DNA of 5,094 nt from Ilumatobacteraceae bacterium (lineage in GTDB: Bacteria; Actinomycetota; Acidimicrobiia; Acidimicrobiales; Ilumatobacteraceae), in the NCBI GenBank assembly GCA_016650435.1, contig JAENVT010000073.1, forward strand, positions 1 to 5,094, written 5' to 3'. Made by a program: the position numbers and the translations under genes. A model generated the notes under the pieces. The model made no database searches. It saw nothing but the letters and a program-made list of their open reading frames with translations, and was not told the DNA's origin. Shown piece after piece: positions 1 through 5,094 of this stretch (positions are counted from its first letter, which is position 1; each line of letters starts with the position of its first letter).

Positions 1-201
1 CTGTTCGGCTTCCTCGATCACAGCTCAGGGATCCTGCAGGTCAACTCGATCCCGCGATCGATCATCGACATCATCAAGGGAGTGATCGTCCTGACCGTGG
101 TCATCGTCAACGAGGCACTGAAGCGCTGGCACAACCGCCGCACTCAGCAAGCATCGGCGGCGATGATCAGCGCCCTCGACATGGAAGCGGCGCCGGCGTG
201 A
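1..201 (+). CDS. Nucleoside-type ABC transporter permease, C-terminal fragment
   Basis: The window opens inside this gene; only the last 66 residues and the TGA stop are visible. The fragment reads LFGFLDHSSGILQ, then a hydrophobic helix around IIDIIKGVIVLTVVIVNEAL, then a basic, polar tail (KRWHNRRTQQ) that should be cytoplasmic. This is the pattern of the final membrane segment of the first permease (YufP/NupP-like, BPD_transp_2 family) in BmpA-type ABC importers, which carry nucleosides across the cytoplasmic membrane. The family call rests partly on the next gene, a clear second permease of the same system. The stop overlaps that gene's GTG start by 4 bp, so the two are probably translationally coupled and form the heterodimeric membrane channel. 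The ATPase and the substrate-binding lipoprotein would be expected upstream, outside the window. No substrate specificity can be read from this fragment. Confidence 0.82.
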   Translation: MFGFLDHSSGILQVNSIPRSIIDIIKGVIVLTVVIVNEALKRWHNRRTQQASAAMISALDMEAAPA

Positions 202-1499
202 CCGAGACCATGAACGCGCCTGCTCCAGAGGCCCGGGTCAACAGCTTCGGAGGCCGCATCAGCAGTCTCAGCCGCGCCCAACGCGTGCTGGGCGCCGGGT
301 TGCTCGTCATGCTCGTCATGAGCATCGCCCGAGTGATCGCCAACGCCAACGACCTCACCTCCTCGGGCACGGTCGCCGCCACCCTGCGTCTCTCGGCCCC
401 TCTGGTCTGCGCCGGTCTCGCTGCGCTGTGGGCAGAGCGCGTCGGCATCATCAACATCGGTGTCGAGGGGATGATGATCCTGGGCACGTGGGCAGGCGGC
501 TTCGGGGCATGGAAGTACGGGCCGTGGGTCGGGCTGCTGCTGGGGGTCATCGCCGGGTCCATCGGTGGGTTGATCCATGCCCTCGCGGTCGTGCGGTTCA
601 ACGTCGACCACGTCATCTCCGGTGTCGCCATCAACATCTTCGCCCCTGGCGCGGCGCGCTTCCTCTCCGAACAGATCTTCACGCCGCACGGTGGTGGAGC
701 CAGCAACTCACCGCCCCAGAAGTCGACGATCCCGTCGATCAACTTGCCGTTCATCTCCGGCGGCCGTCTGTTCGGTTGGCGAAGCCCCGACATCACCGGT
801 TGGTTCGAGCGGCGTCACTGGTTCCTCATCAGCGACATCGCCTCGCTCATACGCGGTGTCGGTCGTGACGTGTCGTTCGCGACGCTGATCATTCTCCTGC
901 TCGTGCCGTTGTCGGCATGGGTCCTGTGGCGCACGCGGTTCGGTCTGCGGCTGCGCAGCTCGGGCGAGGCGCCGTATGCCGCATCGAGCCTTGGTGTCAA
1001 CATCTCCCGAGTTCGCTACCAGGGCATGGCCATCAGCGGCGCCCTCGCCGGGCTCGGCGGCGCCTTCTTGTCCGTCGTGGCGTCGAGTGTCTACCGCGAG
1101 GGTCAGACAGGCGGACAGGGCTTCATCGGCCTGGCGACGAACATCTTCGGTAACTGGCGGCCCGCAGGGGTGCTCAGCGGCGGCGTGCTCTTCGGCTTCG
1201 CCACGGCGCTCCGTCTGCGCGATGCCAAGAACGTTCCTGCTCTGTTCCTCGTGCTCGCCATGGCACTCCTCATCGTGGGCATCCTCGTGCTCCGGAAGCG
1301 CCGCGTGATCGCTGGCACTGTCTGCATCGTCTTCGCGATCCTTGCCGCCATCGGCTTCGTGACGATCAACGAGCTCCCGCAGGCGCTGACCTTCATCACG
1401 CCACACGTGATCACCCTGATCGTGCTCGCCACCGCATCGCAACGACTTCGTCCTCCGGCGTACTCCGGGCGGCCGTATCGCGAGGGCGAGTCGCACTAA
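198..1499 (+). CDS. Nucleoside-type ABC transporter permease (YufQ/NupQ-like)
   Basis: A 433-residue integral membrane protein of the BPD_transp_2 family, the second permease of a BmpA-type nucleoside importer. The signature IINIGVEGMMILG (residues 84-96) is the family's hallmark. It is followed by hydrophobic segments at roughly 30-48, 60-78, 108-132, 227-245, 276-297, 325-338, 346-365, 370-388 and 398-413. TRFGLRLRSSGEAP (246-259) lies in the loop expected to contact the ATPase, and GQGFIGLATNIFGNWRP (306-322) is a second conserved block. A long polar loop at about 160-210 is probably extracytoplasmic. The GTG start at 198 is chosen because it overlaps the previous stop (GTGA) and has a weak GGAAG at 183-187; an ATG at 210 is the alternative. 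The protein is somewhat longer than many relatives because of its N-terminal and C-terminal extensions. The substrate is inferred to be nucleosides from the family and from add downstream; related importers for other small molecules cannot be excluded. Confidence 0.9.
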   Translation: MTETMNAPAPEARVNSFGGRISSLSRAQRVLGAGLLVMLVMSIARVIANANDLTSSGTVAATLRLSAPLVCAGLAALWAERVGIINIGVEGMMILGTWAGGFGAWKYGPWVGLLLGVIAGSIGGLIHALAVVRFNVDHVISGVAINIFAPGAARFLSEQIFTPHGGGASNSPPQKSTIPSINLPFISGGRLFGWRSPDITGWFERRHWFLISDIASLIRGVGRDVSFATLIILLLVPLSAWVLWRTRFGLRLRSSGEAPYAASSLGVNISRVRYQGMAISGALAGLGGAFLSVVASSVYREGQTGGQGFIGLATNIFGNWRPAGVLSGGVLFGFATALRLRDAKNVPALFLVLAMALLIVGILVLRKRRVIAGTVCIVFAILAAIGFVTINELPQALTFITPHVITLIVLATASQRLRPPAYSGRPYREGESH

Positions 1500-1511: not shown

Positions 1512-2579
1512 TCAGACGCGCGCCACGGCGCCGACGCCATCGAGCACGGCGCGCACATCGGCACCGATGCGATGCAACTGATAGCCACCCTCCTGCACGA
1601 TGAGTAGCGGTCTATCGATCGTGCCGATGAGTCGCCCAACGCCGTTGAAATCATCGGTGGTCAGTGCCAGCCCGGCCGTCGGATCACCGGCGGCCGGGTC
1701 GACGCCGAGCGACACGACGACGTAGTCGGGGTCGAAAGCGTTGAGCGAGTCGATACCCGTGGTGAGGTCGGTCAAGTAGTGGTCGCCCGTCGTTCCGGGC
1801 GGAAGGGGAAGGTTGAGGTTGGCCCCGGCACCGCGTCCGTCGCCGCGCTCGTCGGCGCGGCCGACGAACCACGGGTAGTTCCACTCCGGGTCCATGTGGA
1901 TGCTGACGAACTGCACGTCGCTGCGCTGGTAGAAGATCTGCTGCGTGCCGTTGCCGTGGTGGGCGTCGACATCGAGCACCGTGACGCGACGCGCTCCGCC
2001 GTCGAGCAACGCCTGAGCGGCGATCGCCGCGTTGTTCAACAGGCAGAACCCCCCAAAAGCTGATCGTGTCGCGTGGTGTCCCGGCGGGCGACACAACGAG
2101 TAGACAGTGCGCTCGCCGGCGAGCAACCGATCGACGCCCGACAGGGCGATGTCTGCTGACGCCAGCGCAGCCGGCCACGAGCCCTCGCTGAGCGGCGACG
2201 ATGTGTCGAAGCAGAACCAGCCGATCCGGCCGTAACCATTTGTGGACGGCGGACGCCCGACTGGCATGCCCTCCAGGAGACCCTCATGGTTGAACAACTC
2301 GCCGATGACGATCTGCGGGTCACTGACCACTGACGTGTACTCCTTCCACGCAGTCGACAAGAAGTCGACCAGGTCGGGGTTGTGCACGCGCAGCACGGGC
2401 TCGAGGCCATGGCGGGTGGGAGCAGTCATCAGGAAGGGGCCATCGGCGAGGGCGTGACGAATCCGGTCGACCCGCTGCGGCACCTCGAAACGCCCCACCA
2501 CCGAGCCGGCATAGATGTCGAACTCGGGATCGTGGGAACGATGATCGTCGCTGGTGACGACGGAAAGCGGCGTCTGCAT
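1512..2579 (-). CDS. Acetylpolyamine amidohydrolase-like deacetylase (HDAC family)
   Basis: A 355-residue zinc hydrolase of the arginase/deacetylase superfamily that removes acyl groups from amines, expected in the cytoplasm. The active site is complete: RPPGHHA gives the paired histidines H168/H169, VLDVDAHHGNGTQ gives zinc ligands D205 and H207, SLGVDPAAGDP gives the third ligand D294, and EGGY gives the transition-state Tyr333. From memory, the core aligns with Mycoplana ramosa acetylpolyamine amidohydrolase at a constant offset of 10 residues (H158/H159, D195, H197, D284, Y323), including the family's insert before the catalytic domain. That makes APAH a better label than eukaryotic-type HDAC. 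However, the two acidic residues tied to polyamine binding there (E106, E117) are Tyr116 and Ser127 here, so the substrate may not be a polyamine. The reading frame stays open upstream to 2810, but the ATG at 2579 matches the family N-terminus and sits 6 nt behind a promoter box. It lies downstream of queF on the same strand, 35 bp away. Confidence 0.92.
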   Translation of the reverse strand: MQTPLSVVTSDDHRSHDPEFDIYAGSVVGRFEVPQRVDRIRHALADGPFLMTAPTRHGLEPVLRVHNPDLVDFLSTAWKEYTSVVSDPQIVIGELFNHEGLLEGMPVGRPPSTNGYGRIGWFCFDTSSPLSEGSWPAALASADIALSGVDRLLAGERTVYSLCRPPGHHATRSAFGGFCLLNNAAIAAQALLDGGARRVTVLDVDAHHGNGTQQIFYQRSDVQFVSIHMDPEWNYPWFVGRADERGDGRGAGANLNLPLPPGTTGDHYLTDLTTGIDSLNAFDPDYVVVSLGVDPAAGDPTAGLALTTDDFNGVGRLIGTIDRPLLIVQEGGYQLHRIGADVRAVLDGVGAVARV

Positions 2580-2614: not shown

Positions 2615-2986
2615 CTATGCCCCGAGGTGGGCCACTGCCTGCACTTCGATGCCCCCACGCGGGCGCTGGGTCAGTGTCACCGTCACCCACTTCGGCTTGC
2701 ACGTGGTCATGACCTCGCCGGCAATCTCGGCGGCCAGCGCCTCGGCGAACACTGGCTGGTCGCGGAACCGCCACAGGTACAACTTCAGGCTCTTCGATTC
2801 GATGCACCACTGGTCCGGCGCGTACTCGATGACCACATTCGAGAGGTCAGGCTGCTCGGTGACCGGGCAGATCGAACCAACCTCGTCGGTGGTGAAACGC
2901 ACGGTGCTGACATTCGCCGGCGCCGGGAAGGCCTCGACATGGTCGATGGCGTGACGAATCGTGCTACCTAGAACAGTCAATTCCAT
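2615..2986 (-). CDS. queF: QueF-type preQ0 reductase (7-cyano-7-deazaguanine reductase)
   Basis: A 123-residue protein of the single-domain (type I) QueF family in the T-fold (tunnelling fold) superfamily. QueF reduces the nitrile of preQ0 to the aminomethyl of preQ1 with two NADPH, in the queuosine tRNA modification pathway in the cytoplasm. ICPVTEQPD contains the nucleophilic Cys40 and the proton donor Asp47, and ESKSLKLYL (63-71) is the QueF motif. Spacings match Bacillus subtilis QueF exactly (Cys55, Asp62, Glu78, Glu97 correspond to Cys40, Asp47, Glu63, Glu82). One pocket residue differs: the usual Phe-His-Glu reads Phe-Ala-Glu here, with Ala81 in place of His96. The protein is shorter than the B. 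subtilis enzyme (about 165 residues). The ATG at 2986 is preferred over the upstream ATG at 3034, because the latter would read through the promoter region and adds non-homologous residues. No other queuosine genes are in the window. A QueF paralogue with altered chemistry is possible. Confidence 0.88.
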   Translation of the reverse strand: MELTVLGSTIRHAIDHVEAFPAPANVSTVRFTTDEVGSICPVTEQPDLSNVVIEYAPDQWCIESKSLKLYLWRFRDQPVFAEALAAEIAGEVMTTCKPKWVTVTLTQRPRGGIEVQAVAHLGA

Positions 2987-3019: not shown

Positions 3020-3025
3020 TACGCT
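3020..3025 (+). promoter_or_regulatory. Candidate -10 box (TACGCT) of the dioxygenase-add operon, leaderless
   Basis: TACGCT ends 7 nt before the ATG at 3033, so initiation is predicted at or beside the start codon, and no ribosome-binding site is present. It shares the extended form CGCCTACSCT with the queF promoter on the opposite strand. It probably drives the dioxygenase gene and add together, since those two genes overlap. Confidence 0.6.
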
Positions 3026-3032
3026 GCAGACC

Positions 3033-3914
3033 ATGGGATCGGTGCTAGACGACGATCAGATCGAGCAGTATCACCGTGATGGGTTCCTCGTCATTCCGGG
3101 CTTTGTCGACAAGATGGCCTGCGACGAGTTGAAGGCTGCGGCCAACCACATCGTCGACGACTTCCAGCCGAGTGGCGAGCGCACGATCTTCACAACCACC
3201 GAGCAGGAGCGGGTGAGCAACGGCGAGTTCCTCGCGTCCGGTTCCGGTGTGTGGTGCTTCTTCGAGGAGGAGGCGTTCGACGAACACGGCCGGCCGCGCA
3301 CGTCGAAAGAGTTGAGCATCAACAAGATCGGTCATGCCATGCACGACCTCGACCCGACGTTCGAGAAGTTCTCGTACCGACCGGAGTTGGCGGGCGTCGC
3401 CACCGATATCGGCATGGCCGACGCCATGGCGCTGCAGAGCATGTACATCTTCAAGCAACCGCTGATCGGTGGCGAGGTCGCCTGTCATCAGGACAGCACG
3501 TTCCTGTACACGAACCCGCTGACGGTCGCCGGATTCTGGTTCGCGATCGAGGATGCGACGCTGCAGAACGGCTGCCTGTGGACCAAGCCGGGTGGGCACC
3601 GCACAACCTTGCGAAAGGTGTTCAAGCGCGCCGGCGATAGCGATTCGGACGGGACGATTTTCGAAGAGCTCGACCCCGCGCCCTTGCCGTCGCCGTCGGA
3701 TCTCATTCCTCTCGAAGTACCCGCCGGCACAATGGTGATCCTGCATGGGCTGCTTCCGCACTGGAGCGACATCAACCGTTCCCCCACCAGCCGACACGCG
3801 TACTCGCTGCATTGCATTTCGGCTGCTGCCGAGTATCCGGATTGGAACTGGCTGCGCCGTTCGCCCGACATGCCGTTGCGTTCGCTCGCCGTAGTCGCCG
3901 GGGCCGCCGCGTGA
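3033..3914 (+). CDS. PhyH-family Fe(II)/2-oxoglutarate dioxygenase, PHYHD1-like
   Basis: A 293-residue non-haem iron dioxygenase of the phytanoyl-CoA dioxygenase family; members couple 2-oxoglutarate decarboxylation to substrate oxidation. The N-terminus ([16 protein letters not shown], 10-24) is typical of the family. HQD gives iron ligands H152 and D154, H243 in [11 protein letters not shown] is the distal ligand, and R254 should bind 2-oxoglutarate. Beyond these, [10 protein letters not shown] (95-104), QSMYIFKQP (135-143), [15 protein letters not shown] (146-160) and [12 protein letters not shown] (172-183) correspond closely, as recalled, to human PHYHD1, which has almost the same length, up to the C-terminal Trp-x-x-x-Asn-Trp-Leu region (here WNWL, 271-274). 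This makes PHYHD1 a better match than true phytanoyl-CoA hydroxylase. The substrate is unknown; no CoA-binding feature is evident. The ATG at 3033 fits both the family start and the promoter spacing. The stop overlaps the add start by 4 bp, suggesting a shared pathway. Confidence 0.9.
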
Positions 3915-4981
3915 ACATCAGCACGCTTCCGAAGGCCCTGTTGCACGATCACCTCGACGGCGGCTTGCGTCCCGAAACGGTGATCGAACTGGCTGCAGAA
4001 TACGGGTACAGCAAGCTGCCGACCACCGACGTCGACGACCTCGCGGCGTGGTTCAATCGCGGCGCGAAACGCAACGACCTTGTGCTGTACCTCGAGACGT
4101 TCGCGCACACGGTCGGTGTCATGCAGCAACGCGACGCAATCGAACGAGTGTCGTACGAATGCGCGGTAGACCTCGCCGCCGATGGTGTCATCTACGCCGA
4201 GGTTCGCATGGCACCCGAGCTGTGTACCGAGGAAGGTTTGACGCTCGACGAAGCGGTCGAAGCAATGCTCGACGGTTTACGTCGCGGCGCTGCCGGAACG
4301 GACCTGACGATCTACCTCATCCTGTCGGCGATGCGCACTGCAGCGCGCAGCCGGGAGATCGCCGAGCTCGCCGTGCGCTGGCGCGATGAGGGGGTGGTCG
4401 GGTTCGACATCGCCGGAGCCGAAGAGGGCTTCCCGCCCACTCATCATCTCGATGCTTTCGACTACGTGCGCCGCGAGAACTTCCACACCACCATTCACGC
4501 GGGTGAGGCGTTCGGATTGCCCAGCATCTGGGAGGCCGTGCAGTTTTGCGGTGCCGAACGTCTCGGCCACGGAGTACGAATCGTCGACGACATCACCGGT
4601 CCGCCCGGCGAGGAAGAGCTCGGGCGATTGGCCGCGTTCGTGCGCGACCGTCGCATCCCGTTGGAGTTGTGTCCGACATCGAATCTTGGAACTGGCATCT
4701 GCAAAACGATCGCCGAGCATCCCATCGGGATGCTTCGCCGCTTGCGATTCCGTGTCACCGTCAACACCGACAACCGGCTGATGAGCGCGACCTCGATGAC
4801 GTTCGAGATGGAACAACTTGCCGACGCGCTCGGCTGGGGTCTTGACGACTTCGAATGGCTCACGATCAACGCGATGAAGAGCGCGTTCGCTGCGTTTCCC
4901 GAGCGGCTGAGAATCATCAACGGGATCGTCAAGCCGCGGTACGCACTGGCCCGCGCCGAGCAGAGCGTCGGTCTGAGCTGA
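3911..4981 (+). CDS. add: Adenosine deaminase
   Basis: A 356-residue zinc amidohydrolase that hydrolyses adenosine and deoxyadenosine to inosine or deoxyinosine plus ammonia, a cytoplasmic step in purine salvage. [17 protein letters not shown] (6-22) supplies zinc ligands H12 and H14. IHAGE supplies zinc ligand H196 and the proton-shuttling E199. ERLGHG supplies catalytic H220, and VNTDN supplies zinc ligand D287. [12 protein letters not shown] (251-262) is the conserved strand before it. Asn288 replaces the second Asp of the mammalian Asp-Asp pair; I recall the same Asp-Asn in mycobacterial enzymes, so this looks lineage-typical. The frame is open back to 3812, but the GTG at 3911 is chosen because it overlaps the preceding stop (GTGA) and begins six residues before the conserved LPK motif, as in relatives. 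A G-rich stretch near 3899-3902 is at most a weak ribosome site. Coupling to the dioxygenase gene is likely. Confidence 0.95.
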
Positions 4982-5015: not shown

Positions 5016-5042
5016 GTTGGGCGCGATTCCGGAACTGCCAGC
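5016..5042 (+). repeat. 27-bp direct repeat, copy 1
   Basis: The unit begins GTTGGGCGCGATTCC and ends GGAACTGCCAGC, and contains the 8-bp palindrome TTCCGGAA (5027-5034). An identical 27-bp copy begins 52 bp later. It starts 35 bp after the add stop, in DNA with no coding signal. Confidence 0.85.
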
Positions 5043-5067: not shown

Positions 5068-5094
5068 GTTGGGCGCGATTCCGGAACTGCCAGC
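5068..5094 (+). repeat. 27-bp direct repeat, copy 2, reaching the window edge
   Basis: Identical to the copy at 5016-5042 over all 27 positions, and cut by the end of the window, so the true repeat may be longer and more units may follow. The 25-bp stretch between copies contains the pairing arm ATCGCGCCC. Apart from these elements, nothing coding is visible in 4982-5094. Confidence 0.85.

Follow-up and report, generated by a model that had tools for sequence, protein, structure and literature searches.

The 5,094-nucleotide stretch analysed here (contig JAENVT010000073.1 of an Ilumatobacteraceae bacterium, assembly GCA_016650435.1), the whole of which is called the window and is numbered from its first letter, encodes an Fe(II)/2-oxoglutarate dioxygenase that, judged by sequence comparison, is a genuine bacterial PHYHD1 set among genes of nucleoside salvage. 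The dioxygenase gene (3033..3914, forward strand, ATG start, 293 amino acids) overlaps the start of an adenosine deaminase gene, add (3911..4981, forward strand, GTG start, 356 amino acids). The most probable function of the protein, to which we assign a probability of roughly 75%, is removal of the 2'-O-methyl group from imported free nucleosides, which would then enter salvage.

The dioxygenase is a member of the PhyH family (PF05721, 140 bits in Pfam) and matches human PHYHD1 in the PDB with an E-value of 1.8e-59, which as a measure of sequence likeness excludes chance as its source. The motifs that an earlier note on this DNA had described as common to the protein and animal PHYHD1 are real and fall in the alignment with human PHYHD1, to which the window protein is 41% identical. 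The placement in the PHYHD1 clade is likewise borne out by trees, in which the window dioxygenase and human PHYHD1 stand on one side with other PhyH proteins apart (support 100/100, from a sample of one animal PHYHD1, 11 of the 23 fetched paralogues and one EctD), and the same grouping is recovered in a fuller quick tree with a Shimodaira-Hasegawa-like approximate likelihood ratio (SH-aLRT) of 99. The nesting of human PHYHD1 within the bacterial rows is not significant (approximately unbiased test, p 0.448). Membership of the ectoine hydroxylases was rejected, as the single EctD in the trees groups apart from PHYHD1. The best 120 of 7,999 scored candidates include one identical protein, the others being 69-94% identical, and their named sources are Ilumatobacteraceae, Actinomycetota or freshwater metagenome. 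A pattern scan of viral contigs matched 8 stretches, none of which was confirmed.

The active site of the dioxygenase is conserved, with an HxD...H iron triad and an arginine. The iron ligands H152 and D154 belong to an HQD motif encoded at 3486..3494 and the third ligand, H243, is encoded at 3759..3761, in alignment with H156, D158 and H246 of human PHYHD1. The arginine, R254 (3792..3794), aligns with R257 of the human protein, a residue which we take to have a role in 2-oxoglutarate binding. Docking on human PHYHD1 puts K102, H105, Q139 and W277 in contact with the ribose, F161 in a stack with the base and S154 in contact with purines (PMC12709175). All four ribose contacts are kept in the window dioxygenase as K98 and H101 (K98-H101 encoded at 3324..3335), Q135 (3435..3437) and W273 (3849..3851), all of these codons, like those of the triad, being on the forward strand. 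The equivalent of F161 is a phenylalanine (F157), and not the tyrosine that the same source gives for this position in bacterial demethylases of the FJS type (PMC12709175).

Conservation of the ribose contacts distinguishes the PHYHD1-like proteins from other PhyH proteins. Among 110 homologues, a count that omits three others whose matched stretch contains a stop, the lysine is present in 110, the histidine in 109, the glutamine in 110 and the tryptophan in 110, and the position of F161 is occupied by Phe in 89 and Tyr in 21. As 80 of the loci had been picked out by two patterns, SINKIGH among them, the fairer count is that in 31 homologues from whole-genome protein searches (among them L112, which duplicates L052), where all four contacts are found in 30. 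Among 24 other PhyH proteins, consisting of 23 paralogues and one EctD, none has all four: K102 and H105 are matched in 0, Q139 in 6 and W277 in 1.

The earlier note knew of no established physiological substrate for PHYHD1, a view that was overtaken in December 2025 when functional screening led to FJS, a metagenomic bacterial enzyme, and then to human PHYHD1 and others, as demethylases that act on free 2'-O-methyl nucleosides and yield the unmethylated nucleoside (Nucleic Acids Res.; PMC12709175). The paper states that no physiological substrate of PHYHD1 had been known earlier, and reports release of formaldehyde for FJS with 2'-O-methylcytidine, a broad base tolerance of 2'-O-methyl removal by PHYHD1 and FJS, nucleotides as non-substrates of these demethylases, accumulation of free 2'-O-methyl nucleosides in zebrafish without PHYHD1, and an E. 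coli strain that cannot itself metabolise 2'-O-methylcytidine (PMC12709175). Demethylation is thus published for relatives of the window protein rather than for that protein, for which we infer a corresponding substrate. A neighbouring importer would bring in free nucleosides, and the dioxygenase, with Fe(II), O2 and 2-oxoglutarate, would hydroxylate the 2'-O-methyl group of those that are ribose-methylated, yielding an unstable product that would decay to ordinary nucleoside and formaldehyde as 2-oxoglutarate is converted to succinate and CO2. Freed adenosine would be converted to inosine by the coupled deaminase and cytidine would be handled by cdd, with phosphorolysis where phosphorylase genes exist, the likely order being import, 2'-O-demethylation, deamination and phosphorolysis. 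Such a pathway may scavenge the breakdown products of RNA.

The arrangement of genes in the window is in keeping with this proposal. As the earlier note had observed, the termination codon of the dioxygenase (TGA, 3912-3914) overlaps the initiation codon of add (GTG, 3911-3913), creating the arrangement GTGA at 3911..3914 on the forward strand. This four-base overlap suggests translational coupling, through which the two proteins would probably be co-expressed. Nucleoside-type permeases also lie nearby as noted, on the same strand as the pair: a whole ABC transporter permease (BPD_transp_2, PF02653) is encoded at 198..1499, where relatives have the second of the two permeases of a Bmp/PnrA-type importer, and its start is overlapped by the 3' end of an open reading frame (1..201, forward strand) that by its position in relatives is probably the first permease. 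Of this putative importer the window holds one whole permease and the tail of another reading frame, Bmp and the ATPase being seen in relatives only.

The linkage to add is not unique to this genome, a candidate explanation that was rejected. When one genome per species was scanned, at least 592 stretches matched and at least 415 were confirmed, and the best 80 of these confirmed loci were examined for neighbours with probes for 11 nucleoside genes within 6 kb. In 40 of the 80, all of them actinobacterial by record title, the dioxygenase is followed within 715 bp by a co-directional deaminase of the window type (66-91% identity). The dioxygenase and add are adjacent in 37 of the 80 loci as well as in the window, and the four-base overlap was called in 22 of these 37 and the window, by a codon-usage gene caller whose start sites are rough. 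Relatives, whose gene content was assigned by Pfam and NCBIfam on one representative per group, commonly show the order Bmp, ATPase, permease, permease, (queF, on the opposite strand), PHYHD1, add and upp. In four loci (L037, L040, L044 and L046) the dioxygenase is preceded by cytidine deaminase and a uridine-phosphorylase-like gene that scores under the model cut-off; in L037, where this cdd and phosphorylase lie upstream, a deaminase fragment reaches the contig end. In L057, the deaminase is 3.8 kb off on the opposite strand, with a Bmp gene beyond.

Draws of genomes made evenly within larger groups, each including and counting a centre genome that was chosen for having a PHYHD1-like gene, extend the picture. 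In Acidimicrobiia, a PHYHD1-like gene is present in 17 of 198 genomes, 16 of them at E <1e-80, and nucleoside genes adjoin it in 16/16. The deaminase is directly downstream (<=160 bp) in 12 of the 16; for the other four, it is on the same strand within 3 kb in G083 and G196, elsewhere in G118 and not found in G048, and for G118 and G048 the genes upstream of the dioxygenase are cdd plus deoA (L138) and cdd plus purine nucleoside phosphorylase (L140). The gene occurs in 10/296 genomes of Actinomycetota overall, all ten already in the Acidimicrobiia draw, in 2/274 of Gammaproteobacteria, and in 28/289 of Alphaproteobacteria, with nucleoside genes in 14 of the 28. Nine of these alphaproteobacterial loci have cdd, punA and deoA upstream, joined by deoB in six, and five of the nine have directly downstream an add of a different subfamily, 29-30% identical to the window add, by which the linkage proposed in the earlier note is carried beyond the 40 actinobacterial loci. 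The remaining five of the 14 have Bmp within 260 bp, divergent in one. The most complete cluster, that of L115, runs permease, permease, cdd, punA, deoC, deoA, deoB, PHYHD1, add and HAD hydrolase.

By gene content, the usual partner of a PHYHD1-like gene is nucleoside import and breakdown, of purines and pyrimidines alike, with add frequent but not obligatory. This mixture bears on whether the dioxygenase performs a purine-specific step, such as removal of an N6-methyl group from the base before or after the deaminase acts. The overlap with add in the window, and the add genes downstream in half of the 80 loci and directly so in the five alphaproteobacterial ones, fit that idea, which is nonetheless very improbable: L122, L124, L125, L136 and L138 carry cdd and deoA with nothing matching the add probes within 6 kb, L140 pairs cdd with a purine nucleoside phosphorylase, and FJS and human PHYHD1 convert N6,2'-O-dimethyladenosine to N6-methyladenosine, leaving the methyl on the base untouched (PMC12709175). 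Neighbours acting on both purines and pyrimidines are better explained by unblocking of the ribose, whatever the base, than by a purine-only or base-directed step. The earlier proposal that a modified nucleoside is oxidized to remove a group therefore appears sound in its general part, which fits the published 2'-O-methyl demethylase activity, and too narrow in its restriction to purines, because the gene also sits with cdd and thymidine/uridine phosphorylase, sometimes without an adjacent add.

The deo genes raise a second alternative, in which the enzyme would put a hydroxyl group on 2'-deoxynucleosides, at C2' of the sugar as fungal PDN2'H does, or on another ribose position, and feed the same salvage genes. 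Loci with deoA upstream, six of the nine with deoB, would suit such a reaction, although the deo operon processes deoxynucleosides without oxidation. A 2-oxoglutarate nucleoside 2'-hydroxylase, PDN2'H of Neurospora, is named in the published work, and deoxynucleosides are absent from its substrate table (PMC12709175); against this, PHYHD1 and FJS strip 2'-O-methyl groups with little regard to the base, and the residues identified by docking are kept here, which makes deoxynucleoside hydroxylation unlikely.

The window add belongs to the adenosine deaminase family by score (A_deaminase, PF00962, 351.5 bits) and exceeds the equivalog cut-offs of NF006847 (549.1 bits, cut-off 412) and TIGR01430 (246.3, cut-off 216.55). 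Its best PDB matches are adenosine deaminases (best E 4.4e-43), and an identity as N6-methyl-AMP deaminase (MAPDA) was rejected since 6ijm and 8qch, which we take to be MAPDA-type, match less well (1e-20 and 7.6e-17). In Acidimicrobiia, a deaminase of the window type (>=61% identity) is found in 29 of 198 genomes, 15 with PHYHD1 and 14 without, and the 2x2 table gives a Fisher p of 9e-14, uncorrected for kinship. Eight of the loci (L010, L013, L014, L019, L023, L027, L028 and L031) contain a second deaminase with 46-50% identity to the window add; it precedes the dioxygenase in the same orientation, in some loci with an intervening gene, such that two add genes flank the dioxygenase.

Several observations weigh against the assignment. 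The 14 of 29 genomes just mentioned carry this type of deaminase without PHYHD1. The window add has the motif NTDN, as do 47 of the 48 rows of its cluster, in place of the NTDD of mammalian adenosine deaminase, a motif not known to define the whole family; the substrate of the deaminase itself is thus worth checking. In the dioxygenase, the purine contact S154 is replaced by Ala, and the lid segment (Q56-L71 of human PHYHD1) is alignable and four residues shorter, with a helix modelled at 64-71 and low confidence over residues 51-60 (mean predicted local distance difference test, pLDDT, 56). The tree-building program issued a warning that long branches meet between the outgroup and the other sequences. 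None of the 11 nucleoside probes matched within 6 kb in 14 of the 28 alphaproteobacterial genomes, nor in 38 of the 80 loci (11 of the 38 with a flank under 3 kb), and among the non-actinobacterial loci of the 80, probed genes were nearby in L057 only. Twelve betaproteobacterial loci, mostly from Massilia and Janthinobacterium kin (L056, L063, L065, L068, L070, L072-L075 and L078-L080), have instead a TIM-barrel gene (PF01261) downstream and a LysR gene in divergent orientation, and parts of the PHYHD1-like group may, given these partners, have other substrates.

Such loci, together with the diversity of PhyH proteins, lend some weight to a non-nucleoside substrate for the window protein also, its position among nucleoside genes being inherited hitch-hiking. 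We regard this as improbable, because nucleoside neighbours occur in two phyla, in differing gene orders and with a different add subfamily, and because the nucleoside-neighbour label requires 7 changes on the tree, with or without L057. The neighbourhood has thus not been handed down as a single intact block, gains not being separable from losses. Moreover, in flanks of about 1.5 kb a probe match is found at 14 of 28 alphaproteobacterial PHYHD1-like loci versus 0 of 23 other PhyH paralogues, a small control, not class-matched, of 23 of 42 matches in seven PHYHD1-carrying genomes. FJS made only a trace of product from phytanoyl-CoA (PMC12709175).

Two opposite-strand genes, an HDAC-family gene (1512..2579, reverse strand) and queF (2615..2986, reverse strand, above its TIGR03139 cut-off), separate the permeases from the dioxygenase-add pair, the former lying between the permease and queF. 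Among the 80 loci, the HDAC-family gene has a tblastn match in L001 only. The queF start is 46 bp upstream of the dioxygenase, divergent, and an opposite-strand upstream queF recurs in 28 of the 80 relatives; apart from this position, nothing in the analysis suggests a link to queuosine metabolism. Ahead of the dioxygenase, TACGCT is found at 3020-3025, 7 bases before the ATG at 3033, with no Shine-Dalgarno-like stretch seen by eye, and its mRNA may be leaderless. An exact 27-nucleotide direct repeat occurs at 5016-5042 and 5068-5094, 52 nucleotides start to start and reaching the window end, and is perhaps the beginning of a longer array.

Taken together with the published chemistry, the neighbourhoods make it fairly probable that at least two bacterial phyla possess a dedicated, clustered pathway for ribose-methylated nucleosides, comprising import, PHYHD1-type 2'-O-demethylation, deamination and phosphorolysis. 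They lend independent support, drawn from evolution, to free nucleosides as the class of substrate on which PHYHD1 acts, outline a likely pathway of importer, deaminases and phosphorylases around it, and suggest a possible route by which environmental bacteria use 2'-O-methylated nucleosides from RNA turnover; if so, animal PHYHD1 would be a cousin or detached descendant of a bacterial nutrient-scavenging enzyme. Bacterial proteins and neighbours are now named for direct study of specificity and coupling. The demethylation has been known since December 2025, and the setting among nucleoside genes in two phyla, which we have not found in print, is what the present finding adds. Open-licence literature and a word search in the available text of PMC12709175 yielded no account of nucleoside operons that contain PHYHD1-like genes, and among the papers listed in a search on 2'-O-methyladenosine with adenosine deaminase, judged by title and opening of the abstract, none plainly concerned this reaction.

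Compared with human PHYHD1 (PDB 2opw, 3obz), the window gene is bacterial, overlaps add and lies near importer permeases, and its product differs in the shortened lid and the Ala at S154. FJS is of the same Pfam family and also bacterial, and probably shares its chemistry with the window protein, which by comparison with the published description has the Phe and the full contact set (PMC12709175). The EctD used lies outside the PHYHD1 group and has Q139 alone of the four contacts, and human PHYH was compared by fold and PDB score only. Bacterial nucleoside uptake and salvage operons, none of which to our knowledge has been described with a PHYHD1-type dioxygenase, are matched in gene content by the relatives (Bmp/PnrA ABC importer, cdd, punA, deoA, deoB, deoC and add), and the loci described here differ from them in carrying such a dioxygenase in addition.
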